NCBI RefSeq assembly: GCF_028640845.1 | Contig: NC_080546.1 | Location: 31,145,020 to 31,209,019 of the forward strand | Reading direction: 5' to 3' | DNA length: 64,000 bases | Origin: Ahaetulla prasina | Lineage: Eukaryota > Chordata > Lepidosauria > Squamata > Colubridae | Shown: one piece after another, positions 23,374-63,487 of the stretch | Numbering within the stretch: the first letter of the stretch is position 1 | Layout: each line of letters starts with the position of its first letter | The notes under the pieces: model-generated | Told to the model about the DNA's origin: nothing | Databases searched by the model: none | The model's input: the letters and a program-made list of their open reading frames with translations, nothing else | Translations under genes and position numbers: made by a program

Positions 23374-24588
23374 CTAAAAGACAAGAAGAAAAGAGAGAGA
23401 AAGGGGGGGAGAGGGAATTAATTATTAATTCATTAATTATTTTGTGCTAAATTCTGAGAGTAATTTTCAAACTTAATTATTTTTATTGTTCATTAAAAAG
23501 ACCCAAACAAATCAAATGCCAAACCTATTTTCTCCTTCAAATACTGATATTGAATATAAATATTTATATTCAAATAATTATATATTTTTTTAAATTAGGG
23601 GAAACTAATTTAAGATTGTACAAAATAATATTTTTTTTGCATCTTGCCATTAATAATTATTGAGTAATAATCTACATCATATTCAGACAACCAATTCAAT
23701 TTTATTAATATTGGTGTTGTGATTTATAGTATAGCATTATAAACCTACCATTTCCTGACTATGATAAGAAATTAGAAATGTGTGAACCGAGGTTAGGTCC
23801 TTCCTGAACATTATTTAACAAGCCAGGAATGAATCTAAAGATTATTCAACAAAACATTGTATTCTAATTAAAACAACCTAAGCTCAGATACAAGGTTCTA
23901 AAATTGTTGCATAGTTTTGAACCTCATCAGCTTAAACCTCAACTGATCTTTGCAAAGATTTTTCCCCTATTCCTGGTACTTTCTGGCAAGACTTGCCTGG
24001 ATATTTGGTTTGAAGGGTTATGTTAGGTGATGGTATGCTTAGTCATTTTCTAAAAATAGTCCAAAGCTATGAAACAGATGGAGGTCACAGATTCTTGTTC
24101 ATTTGTTGACACAATAAGTAATAATTTGTTGTTATTTCCACAGCCGAATTAATATCAGAACATTCATCTGTTACAGCCTAGTCAAACTCAGTTCTGTTCT
24201 TGAATCTGTGACTATTCACTGAAGCAAATTCTAAGAAACAATCTGTCATCTTTCCCAAAGCTGATTTGATAAATGTAAGAAAGATACAAAGAGGGGAAAT
24301 TACTCTTGCAAATCTTTTCTGCTTGGCTACATCCAATATGCCCCTAATTCTGTTAATTCCCAACGACTCAGAGTGATTTATTTTATACAAAATGACACTG
24401 CATTCGTGCTGTGGAAGTATACCTGATTTCATTACAAGCTATTTATTTCAATTCTTTAATGTGGTGAGCCGCTCAAGGCAGAGCTCTAGTGAAACATAAT
24501 ATGTAAATCACTGGTGATGCAAATATGGGGCTTTTATTTATTTGACAGTAGAAAAGTTGCAATGAGGGGACATGAATCCATTGCTCAC
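23374..24588 (-). other. CAMK2D: CAMK2D last intron
   Basis: 1.2-kb intron between the last hub exon and the terminal exon, free of recognised repeats. I looked here for the exon of the 21-residue C-terminal tail and did not find it. Confidence 0.75.
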
Positions 24589-24817
24589 TTGATAGGTACT
24601 GTTGGTGATCCTGAACGGTGAAAGTGAACGTTTTGCCATTTTCCATCACGGCGGTGCCAAACCCTCGTCTCTTCTGACTGCATCGTTTTGGGCATTCCAC
24701 TTCCATCCATATATTGTGTCAGTCGGATATATGCAATGCAGGCAGCATCATCCCCTACCAGATGGACATGGGGATTCAGGATAATGGTGTGGACTGGCTT
24801 GTTGCTTTTTGACAAAG
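24589..24817 (-). CDS. CAMK2D: CAMK2D hub-domain exon 3, last full coding exon
   Basis: A 229-bp exon entered in phase 1 after a CCATAG acceptor. It encodes the end of the hub domain, including [20 protein letters not shown], the [20 protein letters not shown] block and GSPTVPI, then two bases (AA) of the last codon. The donor is GTGAGC. If this donor is not used, the codon reads AAG and is followed at once by TGA (24587-24585), giving a PIK end; if spliced to the exon at 23373 the codon becomes AAC and the stop is TAA, giving PIN. Residues are as expected for CaMKII delta rather than alpha, beta or gamma (for example [11 protein letters not shown]). The donor-side intron is 1.2 kb. Confidence 0.97.
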
Positions 24818-26493: not shown

Positions 26494-28321
<1,828 letters not shown>

Positions 28322-29576: not shown

Positions 29577-29652
29577 GTGTAGGCTTCAAAATCCCCATTA
29601 TTGATAGCTTCTATCAGCTGCTCAGTAACCTTGATGATCTCTTGTTTACGAG
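29577..29652 (-). CDS. CAMK2D: CAMK2D hub-domain exon 1 ([20 protein letters not shown])
   Basis: A 76-bp exon entered in phase 1 after a CTCCAG acceptor and left in phase 2 at a GTAAGT donor. It completes an Ala codon, then encodes [20 protein letters not shown] and FEAY, and leaves the first two bases of a Thr codon. This is the first helix of the CaMKII association (hub) domain, which assembles subunits into 12- or 14-mers. All residues match what I know of vertebrate CaMKII delta. It lies between the 24.7-kb intron and a 1.5-kb intron that contains two hAT insertions and a palindromic element. A tRNA-derived SINE (29794-30019) sits about 140 bp upstream of its acceptor. Confidence 0.97.
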
Positions 29653-31928: not shown

Positions 31929-32319
31929 CAGGGGTGAAATCCAGCAGGTTCTGACAGGTTCTTGAGAACTGGTAGCAGAAATTTTGAGTAGTTTGGAGAA
32001 CCAGCAAATACCACCTCTGGCTGGTCCCAGAGAGGGGTGGGAATGAAGTTTTTGCAATATCCTTCCCCCAGGAGTGGGGAGGGAATGGGGATTTTGCAGT
32101 ATCCTTGCCCTGGAATGAGGTGGAAATGAAAATTTTGCAATATCCTTCTCCCAAGAGTGGGGTGGGAATGGGGATCACTCCCCTGGAGTGGGGTGGGAAT
32201 GGAGATTTTACAGTATCCTTCCCCTGCCATGCCCACCAAGCCACATCCACCAAGCCAGAGTATGCCCACCAAGCCATGCCCACAGAACTGGTAGTAAAAA
32301 AAATTGAATTTCACCACTG
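31929..32319. mobile_element. hAT-type MITE, ACCGGTTC family
   Basis: Ends CAGGGGTGAAATCCAGC and GAATTTCACCACTG; exact 8-bp duplication CTTATAAT at 31921-31928 and 32320-32327. Interior has an imperfect tandem of a GGAATGGGGATTTTGCAGTA-type unit (32030-32220). Confidence 0.88.
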
Positions 32320-37624: not shown

Positions 37625-39460
37625 CCAACAGCTCAGGCAGGGCTGTGGTCACGCAGCAAGGAGCCAGGTACGCGATCACCAAGCCCAACTGATTCCTATA
37701 GCCCCACCGCACATAAAGGGATTCACAACCGGCAATCTGAGGAATAGTGGCCTCCCTCGGCTCTAGATCCTCCTTGATAACAACCGCCACCCCCCCACCC
37801 CTACCTTGGACCCTCGGCTGATGAAATGCTCGGAAACCTGGAGGGCACATCTCAACCAGGGGGACCCCTCCCTCTGGGCCCAACCAGGTTTCCGTAATGC
37901 CCATAAGGTCCGCGGACTCCCCCTGAATAAGGTCGCAAATCAGAGGAGCCTTATTAACCATGGACCGGGCATTACATAACATCAGCCGAAGATCCAAGCT
38001 CTGAGGATCACGACCACCCGAGGAACGGGTAGGGACTGAGGGGCCGGAGCACGCGATCGCTTTCAGACATCGAACGCGTGCTCCCACAACTCGGTACGGC
38101 CCCTCCCCCCCGCCATATCTGCCTCTCCCACTTACCGTACAGATCGAACATCCCTCTAAACCTGGAACGTCCTCCCCCCCTGCCTTCAGACAAGATGGAA
38201 TAGTGTCGCGAACTAGCACAGGGGCTGGATCCCTCCCGACGGGTTTTCACCCCACCCGTCAATCCCTCCCCTTAAAAACCCTTATTTAAAAACGGTTTAA
38301 AAACCCCACAGATTCTTCTTCCTCGATGCCACCTCTCCGGGTCCCAAGACCCTCGTTAAGGCCGCCATCGATAACCCGAGGGCCATTCCTGCGAGGCGGG
38401 GAACCTCGCAGTCGGAGAAGGTCAGCGGACGAATATTTCATGCTAAAAGATTAAATAACAGTGGGGAAAAAGGTGTTCCTAGCCACTTGATGTTATCGTA
38501 GCCTGTGGACAAAGTCAGGACAGTCACAAACCAGGGCCAAATGCCCGGTAAGGGTAATAAATAAGATGGAAGTTTGGCTGATGGATTCCGCCATTCAGTA
38601 CTGCCCATAATGGATACAGCAAAAGTTTTTGCCCGCTGGTGCCGCCCATAATCAGGTCCAAGGCCGTCCACGATTGATGCCATCAATAAATAAATAAATA
38701 CCGGGGACAGGAAAAAAGTTTTCAGCCGCAGATGTCGAATGATGGTATATATAAGAGTCAGCTAAAGTTCTAAAATCCAAAATGTCCAAGCTACCTGTGT
38801 CCAATGTCTGTGGTGCCGCTGAAAATAGTCCAGCAAAACAATCCAGCCGCCAGCCGCTGATGATAAGTGCGGACCATAACGCAGCCAGACAATCCCAGAT
38901 GTTGCCAATGGAACCATCAGATGGGTGGAATCGTAGAAACCATGCTGCTGAGCCATGCCACTGAAGGATAGAGCGGCGGAACATCCAGCCGCCGATGGAC
39001 ATATGCGGCCGGCAGCAGCAAACCACGATCCAGCCCGGCCATTCCTAGCGAGCGCCGCTCCGCGCCCCTCCAGAATGGCCGGCGCCATCTACCGTTGCCG
39101 CTGCTGGTATCAGTGCCGCTGCTGCTGGTATCCAAGCCGCTGATGGTATCACTGCCGCTGGCCAGCCTACCGCACCCCCCAACTGGTCGCTGATGTCCGA
39201 GCGACCGCTGCGCCAGCCGGCTCGTTTCCGCGGGCCCGTTTCCGCGGACGCCAGCCAAAATGGCCGCCGGCAACCGTCCACCGCTCGCCCGCCTCTCCAG
39301 CCCCGTTCCCGGCAGCCGAGGGTCTAACAAGACCCAAAGATCTCATTTCGGCTGCCGGAAAGATGTTCTGTGGGGCGGCGGGCCCAGATAGCTTGAAAAC
39401 ACCCCCGAGGCATCGCGGCTAGAAAAAACGCCAACCCACCGCCTGCATGATTCTCAGATC

Positions 39461-45838: not shown

Positions 45839-47001
45839 TGCTGGGGAAAATAAACTAACTTTGGACAATTGTAGATAAATATGATGGGCTATTTTCATAC
45901 CACATATTTGGTTGAAAATTGACTTAAGCTTGATTGCGTTAAGACTATAATTTGATTACTGGTAAACAGTCTTTGAATTTCATACAGAAAAAAATCATAA
46001 GAAATATTTAACTTTGAAAAACAGATTATTCTGACATTGCTTACTACAAAAAAGAAGCCAGGGACTCTTTTTAATGCATGTAAATATTTTTATGTTGCTT
46101 TTAAACAGCATGAACAATTCTCTGTACAGTGATCTGGCTTTCATATTTCTGGATCTCCAAGCAATTCATTCAGTAATGAACTAGCAAGAGTATTAAGATA
46201 GCTGATTCTCTCTTCAATTTCCTAAGAAGCAAAGATCCTCCTGAGATTCAATGCATGTTTAGTGAAAACGCAAACACTTCATTCCCTAAAATGAAAACCA
46301 ATAAAGTTACTGTATATCTTTTATTCAAACGTACTAATGGATATGGGTAACTCTTCAATTGTAACAGTTGCATTAGAATAACTGACACCTGGCTACAGGT
46401 AAATAAATAATTACCCTTTCCCAAACATGTAAATACTACTTCTCCATTTGGCCTGAATCTTGATTACAGATATGGGATCACTGCCATGGAAAAAGTCTGT
46501 TTCAAATGCAACGGCAAGATTTTGGGAGAGCCAAAAAGCCAAAAATTTATATTCCCACATATTTTAGATTCACTATAAAATTGCTAGCCAGCACTGAGGA
46601 GGCAATTTTTTTTATAACTATCTTTAAATTAGTGACACTATAAGTGAGAACACACCGCATGTGAATTTCTGGGATAGGTTCTTCTGGGATCAACCGGTTA
46701 TTTTTAATATTGACTATAATTTTTAAACATTTCTTCTTTTGTAACATCTTGTCTTAGACTCTAACACAATCGCTGTTCAAAAACAGAAAAATGAGACCCT
46801 GCTCCTGATGAAATCAACTCAAGTCAAGGAATGAGTTTGATTAAAAATGGTAGGAATCATCATTGCATCCTTTCTCTCTTTCTTTTCTGCCATTTCCCTC
46901 CATTTTAACAGCAAAGAAATCCTTACTCTGAGAAAAAGACCATGGGAAATAAGAAGATGGGAAAGGATATTCTGTGAGTTATCTTTTGTGAGAAATCTTG
47001 G
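45839..47001 (-). other. CAMK2D: CAMK2D large intron, unassigned
   Basis: AT-rich, nothing recognised. Confidence 0.5.
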
Positions 47002-47640: not shown

Positions 47641-47901
47641 CCCTGTATCCCTGAAAATAAGACATCCCCTGATAATAAGACCAATTGGGCTTTAGAGCAC
47701 ATGCACTAAAATAAGCCTACTCCCTAAAATAAGTCCTCCCCGAAAATATTTAAATGCAGAGCTGGAAATCAGGTAAGACAGCAAGAAGAGCCCCAACTTA
47801 CTCCACGCGCCCCAATAAAACCTCCCCGAAAATAAGGCCAAGCACTTATTTCAGGGTTCAAAAAAATATAAGACAGGGTCTTATTTTTGGGGAAACACAG
47901 G
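47641..47901 (+). mobile_element. MITE of mariner type (CCCGAAAATAAGAC ends)
   Basis: Left end CCCTGTATCCCTGAAAATAA, right end TTATTTTTGGGGAAACACAGG, flanked by TA on both sides. It is in the opposite orientation to the copy at 2489. Confidence 0.7.
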
Positions 47902-48072
47902 TATGTATGTTACCTTGAGCTCTTGGAGGAAAGACAGGGTTTAAATCTAATAAACAAACAATCCTACATTTGAACTCACTGAATTTTTTTTTTAACCTAT
48001 ACCTGGGAAACGAGACGCATCTCAAGTATTTCTACATAAGCAAGACACAGACCTGCTTTCCTGGGGGAGGTT

Positions 48073-48197
48073 TCACTCTCCCTCTGTGCCCAAAGTTTGG
48101 TTATGGATGCTGTGTAGAGCATCCTCATTAGCCTCATCCATTTCACAGATGTTTTCCGAATCAACAACACCATCTAGAAAAGGGCTGCAATATCCAT
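48073..48197 (-). CDS. Candidate alternative 3' exon of CAMK2D with in-frame stop
   Basis: On the minus strand the sequence TTTCTTCTTATTAG (a strong pyrimidine tract and acceptor) ends at 48198. If the exon at 54330, which leaves in phase 1 with a G, is spliced here, the reading frame is Asp followed by 40 codons beginning GYCSPFLDGVVDSENICEMD, ending in TGA at 48075-48073. The peptide is acidic and low in repeats. Possible donors past the stop are CAG/GTCTGT (exon end 48053) and CAG/GTATAG (exon end 48003). A protein made this way would keep kinase, calmodulin segment and linker but lack the hub. I do not recognise this peptide from known CaMKII isoforms. It may be a genuine alternative end, a poison exon, or chance: a 40-codon open frame alone is weak evidence. 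Confidence 0.4.
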
Positions 48198-50858
48198 CTA
48201 ATAAGAAGAAAGCCATATTAACCTTTTCTATATACTTTAGGAATGAGATGCTTTTGGTTTGCAAACCTAGTGATTGCTTTGTAATCTGTTTCTGGAACGC
48301 ACTGATATCTCTCATTTAAAATGCTTCACATTTTCCTGTCCACGGATATTTCTTTAGTTTGTAGCAGAGATTAACATCCAATACAGAATTCTATTATGCT
48401 TCATAATAAGGAACTAATGTGGTATTTCCCGTCCATTTAGTAAGATTTTGTTTTTAGTTTTTAGGTCTGGGCTTCAAGCTCTAGTGTTTTTAGACCTTTA
48501 TTAAATGAACGAAAGATTATTGGGTGGAAATCAAGTCAGGGTTCAGAAGACTTGCAGGGACTCACTTAAATGGAGCCTCTTCTCAATTTCATAATATGCC
48601 TATTTAAATGAAGTACCTGTAGTCATACTATTATTTAGAATTCACACTGGTTTACATCAGGCCTGTCAGAATATGTTTTGTCCATATATATGTATGCTAC
48701 TCCAAAATGCACAGAAGTCAAATATTTGTACTCTACCAAGGTTTATTTTTATTCTGATGGAATTTAGACAGGAAACCTTTTCTCTAAATATTCAAAGTGG
48801 GGGTTCATGGATTTCAAGCAAATTCTTTGTTTAAAAGAAAATATGTTTTATTTAAATATAATTGCTTTCAATTATGCTTTTAAAAATGTGATTATTACAA
48901 TCTGTTTCTAGCATAACTATTGAATGTTCCAATTTTACAGCAAAGCCATCTGTCATTAAAGTTTTACTTTTGGGAATTTTCAACTAAGAAAGTCTCTCTT
49001 ATTTTTCATATCCATCTAGATATCCATATATCATTCCCCCAATAATATATTTTTATAATTTCAATTTGAATATACTTCATTCTATAAGCAATTTCAGTCT
49101 TTGGCACTATTCTCTAGTGCACTTATATGTGAATTAAACTTGAACTTCTTTTCATTCTATGCGTGTAAAAATGGCTACCCTGATTCAGATCACAGGAAGG
49201 ATAGTTCAGTTATCTGTCTGTCAAAGCAATCATATATGATCAACTAATATGTGAGTAATTATTTTTTAAGTTTCATGAATGGAAACTTAATTATGGAAGT
49301 AAGAAAATATATTCATTCACATCAACAAGAGAAGCAACAAGTCTTCAAATTACAATAAGTGCCTATTTTCACTTCACCTCTAAACTATTTTTAAATGACT
49401 CATCTCTTAATTCCATCTGGGAATGGATTAGTAACTACATGGACTTCATCTCTCAACTTACACAAAGGAGAGGGAGATGTGGACTGAGAAGGCTCATATT
49501 CAAGCAAGATATCCTGTGCATCTGCCAAATTCTTGAATCCTGCCATTGAATTGATGGAAACACAACAGTTGAATAAAGATGAAGCTATAGAGCATAAGGA
49601 GAAGCAGAGACATTGACAATAGGAATAGCTACTAAAAAACAACAACAAGCAACCAGAACAACTCTGAATAGGATAAAGGTATCCTTTAATGTTGAACACC
49701 TATTTACAAGGATCTTACCAGACTGACTGCCCTCCCTTGGGAAACAGTAGATTTGTAGTAGTCTTAAGCATGAAATTCTCAGACCTTTTCTTCCCCAAAT
49801 CGACTCTATGCTGGAATGTCTCTTTACTCCCCCACTGGAAGGACTCCCTCTACTTCAACCGATGATTCCATCAGAGAAGGAGAATGATGAATAGAACTTA
49901 ATACCTACATGTGACCCTCCTTTTTGAGAATTGTATTGGGGGTGGAGGGAGATAGATGGAGATAAAAGGAAAAGAAAAGAGGGCCAGAACAAAACCTCAA
50001 AGTAGTAATTTAATTACACACAACAAATGAAACCAGTACATTGCAACATCAATGTATAAGAAAAACAGAGATGGAAAAATCTCATTTGGTTTCAATTTAC
50101 ATTCCAGTAGCATGAAAGATATTCTTAGATTCCCACCATGTTATATAATCTTACAAAGATAAATAATTATCACAAGAAACAAAGTCAATATACCTTGTCT
50201 GTTTATAACATTGTGATCCAACTACAAATAATATAAATCAGTAAATAAACCTCTAATTAATACATGACTTTCATTCATTATGCTGAAGTTTACCAAATAT
50301 AGGGGAAAGAGAGATTTTATAAAATGCATGGAAGTATCTTGTGTAAGAATAAGAGTATCAAAATCTGCTGCAACTAATCTAGTTGTGTACCATTAAATCT
50401 CCAAAATATTACATTATACTATTCTAGCAGTTTTCTGGCTATAATGATGAAGTCCAATGCATAATATTGAATGAATAAATGAATCTTATTAAATAATTAA
50501 CCCTAAAACCAGGACTTGTAAAACAAATAATGGATGTAATAGTTTACATTATGTTATACAGTCTTTCCATGCTTAGGAAGATACTAAAAGGCTCCCCCTT
50601 TTTTAAAAATATTTTTTACATTTTTATTTTGACTAATTTCTAATATACATTTAATTAAGGATAGGCACAACATTAATATTTATAAAATTTGTCTGTCACT
50701 GTTGAGAAAATCTTGTACTGAAAAATCAATCATACAACATGGTGAGATACAGTATCCCAGAATTTAGGATTTAAAAAAAACAAAACAAACCCTTGCCTAG
50801 GAAGCCATTATCAGTATGAGAAGGTCTTCTTAACTCTTCTTTTCCCTACACTTTCTCT
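48198..50858 (-). other. CAMK2D: CAMK2D large intron upstream of the candidate exon
   Basis: No transposon recognised over 2.6 kb, unusual for this window. This is the intron segment just upstream of the candidate exon. Confidence 0.5.
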
Positions 50859-63155: not shown

Positions 63156-63487
63156 CAGTGGTGGGTTTCAAATTTTTTTACTACCGGTTTGGTGGGTGTG
63201 GCTTGGTGGGCATGGCATGGCTTGGTAGACATGACAGGGAAAGGATACTGTAAAATCTGCATTCCCACCCCACTCCGGGGAAGGTTACTGCAAAATCTCT
63301 ATTCCCTCCCCAATCCAAGGGAAGGTTTCTGTAAAATCCCCATTTCCTCCCGAGCAGCTGGGACTTGGGAGGTAGAAAAAGATGGAGGCAGAGCCAGTCA
63401 GACTTTTTACTATCGGTTCTCCGAACTACTCAAAATTTCCTCTACCGGTTCTCCAGAACTGGTCAGAACTGCTGAAACCCACCTCTG
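63156..63487. mobile_element. hAT-type MITE, ACCGGTTC family
   Basis: Ends CAGTGGTGGGTTTCAA and GAAACCCACCTCTG; duplication GTTTCAAC / GTTTCAAA (7 of 8). Interior again has the TTCCC-CCAC-CTCC-AAATC tandem seen at 32030-32220. Confidence 0.82.

Follow-up and report, generated by a model that had tools for sequence, protein, structure and literature searches.

We analysed a 64,000-nucleotide stretch of the Ahaetulla prasina genome (hereafter the window; C8:31145020-31209019), with genome searches run against the 1.77-Gb assembly of 745 contigs. A tblastn search with a manually entered CAMK2D protein as query placed the 3' part of CAMK2D on the minus strand of the window. Two linker exons lie on this strand, one at 58327-58286 encoding EPQTTVIHNPDGNK (tblastn) and one at 54378-54330 encoding ESTESSNTTIEDEDVK (tblastn and boundaries). 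The latter, referred to below as the ESTESS exon, ends in phase 1 and is the upstream splice partner of the candidate exon that concerns us here. The hub, or association domain, is the part that builds the 12-unit ring of CaMKII. Its exons, also on the minus strand and placed by tblastn and boundaries, are hub exon 1 (29577..29652, 76 nt), the normal downstream partner, hub exon 2 (27964..28058, 95 nt) and hub exon 3 (24589..24817, 229 nt to the donor ATCAA/GTGAGC); an earlier sequence-only reading of this DNA had put them at 29652, 28058 and 24817, exactly where tblastn found them. Joined to the ESTESS exon, the hub exons form a single open frame, and their translation matches Pfam CaMKII_AD with an E value of 3.9e-61. 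Just upstream on the same contig, where 20 kb past the window end were examined, we located in order the KRKSSSSVQMM exon and the exons for residues 173-328 of P0013, a tiger snake CaMKII-delta described below; the exons for residues 1-172 lie outside those 20 kb. As a side observation, hub exon 3 read across its own donor (24585-24590) continues as VPIK followed by TGA, so that a transcript left unspliced at that donor would end in this short peptide.

Inside CAMK2D, on the coding strand and between the ESTESS exon and hub exon 1, lies the candidate exon. The sequence-only reading had begun it at 48197, behind an AG at 48199-48198 (48198..48199, minus strand), and had counted 41 residues from the split codon at the phase-1 ESTESS join to a TGA at 48075-48073; this count is confirmed, and the GT donors proposed after 48053 and 48003 are both present. 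The AG is likewise there, but as an acceptor it is not strong, scoring 6.58 with hand-entered splice matrices, versus 8.0-10.75 for the five CAMK2D acceptors of the window. A second AG in the same frame (48174..48175, minus strand; score 6.16) follows 24 nt downstream, and an ATG stands after each of the two. Counted from this second acceptor, the exon would span 121 nt with the donor GCAG/GTCTGT (48053..48173, donor score 6.02) or 171 nt with the donor CCAG/GTATAG (48003..48173, donor score 4.58), both scores lying inside the 3.61-8.29 interval spanned by CAMK2D's other donors. Translated with the G contributed by the ESTESS exon, the coding part (48073..48173) reads DGVVDSENICEMDEANEDALHSIHNQTLGTEGE and then the stop. 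The G+C content of the exon is 0.47 versus 0.33 and 0.31 in the flanks. Upstream, the frame of the tail passes both acceptors unbroken and meets its first stop at 48318, giving 80 open codons (48073-48318), and an ATG at 48216 in this frame gives a 47-residue ORF. A separate acceptor-like site at 48002-48016, TTTCCCAG/GTAT, is the strongest near the exon (score 11.34); it overlaps the donor at 48003 and, entered in phase 1, meets a stop after three codons.

To look for relatives, we searched a protein database with the spliced protein, comprising the kinase, both linker exons and the candidate tail. Among 630 candidates, only one protein reached E <= 1, at an E value of 2.6e-11. This entry, P0013, is the NCBI automatic model for CaMKII subunit delta isoform X3 of the tiger snake Notechis scutatus, an elapid, and has 388 aa; isoform models of this kind usually rest on RNA-seq introns. 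It departs from the usual CaMKII-delta sequence after EDEDVK, which is the same junction as in the window, and its end reads ESTESSNTTIEDEDVK-DGDVDSENICEMDGANKDALPSIHNQTLDTEGE. Its tail (residues 356-388) and that of the window align without gaps, end together and are identical at 28 of 33 residues, each of the five differences being reachable by a one-base change; acidic residues number 10 in each tail, and neither has more than one lysine. This comparison concerns P0013 alone, taken from a cluster of 110 member sequences. P0013 contains Pkinase (E 5.1e-77) and gives no CaMKII_AD match at E <= 0.001, and the window's own product would lack the hub through the stop ahead of the hub exons. The two thus share the gene, the splice junction, nearly the same 33-residue tail and the loss of the hub; they differ in that P0013 lacks the EPQTT exon and contains the nuclear-signal exon KRKSSSSVQMM.

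The tiger snake model also bears on where the exon starts. Use of the AG at 48199-48198 would add eight residues, DGYCSPFL, that P0013 does not have, and the 24 nt separating the two AGs encode precisely these eight, the difference between 41 and 33. Since the P0013 tail begins exactly at the AG 48175-48174, the exon most likely begins at 48173, behind the second of two tandem acceptors, which is probably the true one; the predicted addition is then 33 residues rather than 41, and the earlier start at 48197 has to be given up. The AG at 48175 is preceded at 27 nt by a branch-point-like CTTAT, and that at 48199 is preceded at 19 nt by a TTAAT; in view of the latter, the upstream acceptor may be used as well.

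A separate NCBI snake model with a matching tail at the same junction thus bears out, at the level of sequence, the proposal that an alternative CAMK2D exon at this place truncates the protein before the hub. We consider it probable that CAMK2D has a real alternative exon here, downstream of the ESTESS linker exon and ahead of hub exon 1, that truncates the protein. This exon would be spliced in the window's own species, and its inclusion would swap the whole hub for a strongly acidic 33-residue tail.

We examined how readily such a structure arises by chance in the same 24,677-nt intron, using the candidate's own values as thresholds; by this construction the candidate is the weakest of the 16 that pass. 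Of 1459 AGs there, 66 reach the score of 6.58. Sixteen of these 66 acceptors open at least 41 codons in the right phase, and in 9 cases a donor scoring 4.57 or more is also present within 30-350 nt. On the opposite strand, frames of that length or longer follow 19 of 64 acceptors, and all of 20 first-order Markov sequences contained at least one such acceptor (mean 5.55, maximum 9). Lowering the thresholds to 6.15 and 33 codons, as suits the second acceptor, lets 21 of 80 acceptors through; five of these have a donor scoring 6.0 or more no further than 200 nt from the stop. By sequence alone, the acceptors and frame are unremarkable and within chance; it is the match to P0013 that lifts the candidate above it.

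These counts and the weak acceptors favour an explanation in which the exon is splicing noise, namely a rarely used cryptic exon or an unsupported NCBI model, with intron sequence shared by descent in two snakes. The same explanation is compatible with the outcome of a drift simulation, in which two sequences diverged neutrally and a run passed if at most five changes arose with frame and stop kept. Passing runs made up 85, 71, 48, 21, 9.5, 2.8 and 0.3% at divergences of 0.03, 0.05, 0.07, 0.10, 0.12, 0.15 and 0.20, respectively, and neutral drift explains the five tail differences if the species differ by up to ~10%; a comparison of these two sequences thus does not establish selection at the protein level. 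The ORF alone is also without a relative: the 47-residue ORF retrieved no candidate sharing three 5-residue words in the protein database. Against noise stands the Notechis model, which has the same junction phase, frame and stop and no indels. On balance we regard splicing noise or a model artefact as rather unlikely.

Further searches addressed the origin and spread of the exon. It is single-copy in the genome by both DNA search and protein search, which rules out a repeat as its source. A search for the same exon in the CAMK2 paralogues of the window genome, run without a positive control, matched only the locus itself at E <= 10. A query of linker plus tail returned 11 short genomic ORF proteins at E <= 10 (from 14 candidates), all of which carry the ESTESS exon and none the tail. 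The database therefore contains DNA with the ESTESS exon from several animals, but nothing in it is recognisable as a short ORF related to the tail, which argues weakly against a widely conserved exon. The exon matched no known domain, solved structure or RNA family, and a search with the window likewise gave none.

Granted that the exon is real, what its transcript would yield depends on how it is joined. As a terminal exon, it would give a Ca2+/calmodulin-dependent monomeric kinase unable to enter holoenzymes. If the exon is instead joined to the hub exons, its stop would send the mRNA to nonsense-mediated decay (NMD), which usually applies to a stop lying more than ~50 nt before a later junction. 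Taking hub exon 3 as spliced on at 24589 for the last figure of each series, the donor at 48053 would put the later junctions 20, 96, 191 and 420 nt beyond the stop, and the donor at 48003 would put them 70, 146, 241 and 470 nt beyond it. The sequence-only reading had tied NMD to the donor at 48003. This dependence does not hold: with junctions at least 96 nt (48053) or at least 70 nt (48003) past the stop, either donor is predicted to yield an ordinary NMD candidate. A stable hub-less kinase accordingly needs a terminal exon or an escape from NMD.

These distances, together with donors that score within the gene's range, argue for a poison exon. In that case the exon would be an internal cassette, 48173-48053 or 48173-48003, spliced to the hub exons; its stop would trigger NMD and lower CaMKII-delta, and no hub-less protein would accumulate. 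Here the exon is common to both accounts and the product alone differs. Two points weigh the other way. NCBI lists a protein isoform with this very end, and NMD candidates tend not to be listed as proteins by NCBI. In addition, a possible poly(A) signal, an AATAAA found by pattern only, is present downstream at 46320..46325 on the minus strand, 1748 nt past the stop. The sequence after it is 70% G/T in +16..+56, the highest among AATAAA/ATTAAA sites down to 43000, compared with 40% G/T after a nearer ATTAAA at 46708. A poison exon is in our view quite possible, at somewhat short of an even chance. Owing to the NCBI protein listing and the AATAAA with G/T-rich sequence after it, we lean slightly to the terminal-exon form over the internal one. 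That a stable hub-less protein exists in cells we nevertheless hold to be unlikely, and the fuller proposal, that in snakes, and perhaps in squamates generally, an alternative terminal exon gives rise to a natural CaMKII-delta that is stable, fully hub-less and acidic-tailed, and hence to a monomeric CaM kinase from a gene whose other known products are dodecamer subunits, is distinctly doubtful.

We compared the truncating exon with known systems. The strings of the tail peptide did not occur in the literature searched. Neither the exon nor a natural hub-less CaMKII isoform was found in the non-subscription literature searched; the exon is annotated automatically in one snake (Notechis). The closest natural case found there is CaMKII-beta H, a variant from which one hub exon (h2) is skipped but which retains co-assembly with alpha, according to the available text of PMC5882894. 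It resembles the predicted snake isoform in being a natural splice variant whose hub is damaged and whose homomeric assembly is impaired. However, CaMKII-beta H loses one hub exon and keeps its alpha partner, whereas in the snake isoform the whole hub would be gone and with it any partner surface. A second comparison is with monomers engineered to lack the hub (CaMKII-alpha 1-316 and other truncated forms), which do not co-assemble according to the available text (PMC5882894, PMC12236485). Like the predicted snake isoform, they consist of kinase and regulatory segment with no hub, and by analogy the latter would be a calmodulin-dependent monomer; unlike it, they are laboratory truncations of alpha, with neither an alternative exon nor an acidic tail.

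For the poison exon, the nearest likeness in the text available to us is Ptbp1 exon 14, an unannotated alternative exon with premature stops for which NMD is expected (PMC4801060). The snake exon is similarly unannotated, stop-bearing and alternative. Ptbp1 exon 14, in contrast, belongs to another gene, is conserved between mouse and human, and was shown by RNA-seq and RT-PCR (PMC4801060). A known CAMK2D poison exon was considered as a match and dismissed, as the poison exon in the available text of that paper is the one in Ptbp1. The Camk2d variants there are linker-exon combinations, none described as truncating in that text (PMC4801060), and a review devoted to the variants of CaMKII-delta gives 11 isoforms; where its available text says 'truncated', on two occasions, other things are meant (PMC7991079).

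Hub-mediated assembly has a central place in the understanding of CaMKII. In the portion of the literature found, hub-less monomers are laboratory constructs. If a natural hub-less isoform were true, the need for the hub would become testable in an animal, and in brain, heart or muscle kinase activity would no longer be coupled to the holoenzyme. If the exon were a poison exon, it would provide lineage-specific control of CaMKII-delta dose. Either would mean that the CAMK2D transcript set differs outside mammals, where it was worked out.

Several further features of the region were recorded. The intron that holds the candidate exon also contains stronger acceptors with longer phase-1 frames, for example of 173 codons at 38035 and of 107 codons at 37837, the latter with a donor of 9.1. 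An abundant dispersed repeat of ~200 nt (47700-47918) starts about 85-110 nt beyond the donor at 48003; of 40 matches scored out of 3292 genome candidates, one is the locus itself and the other 39 are 87-90% identical. A further copy of this repeat, ~86% identical, lies at 2493-2672 of the window. Tandem arrays built of 40-42-nt units occur at two places, 32026-32170 and 63235-63351.
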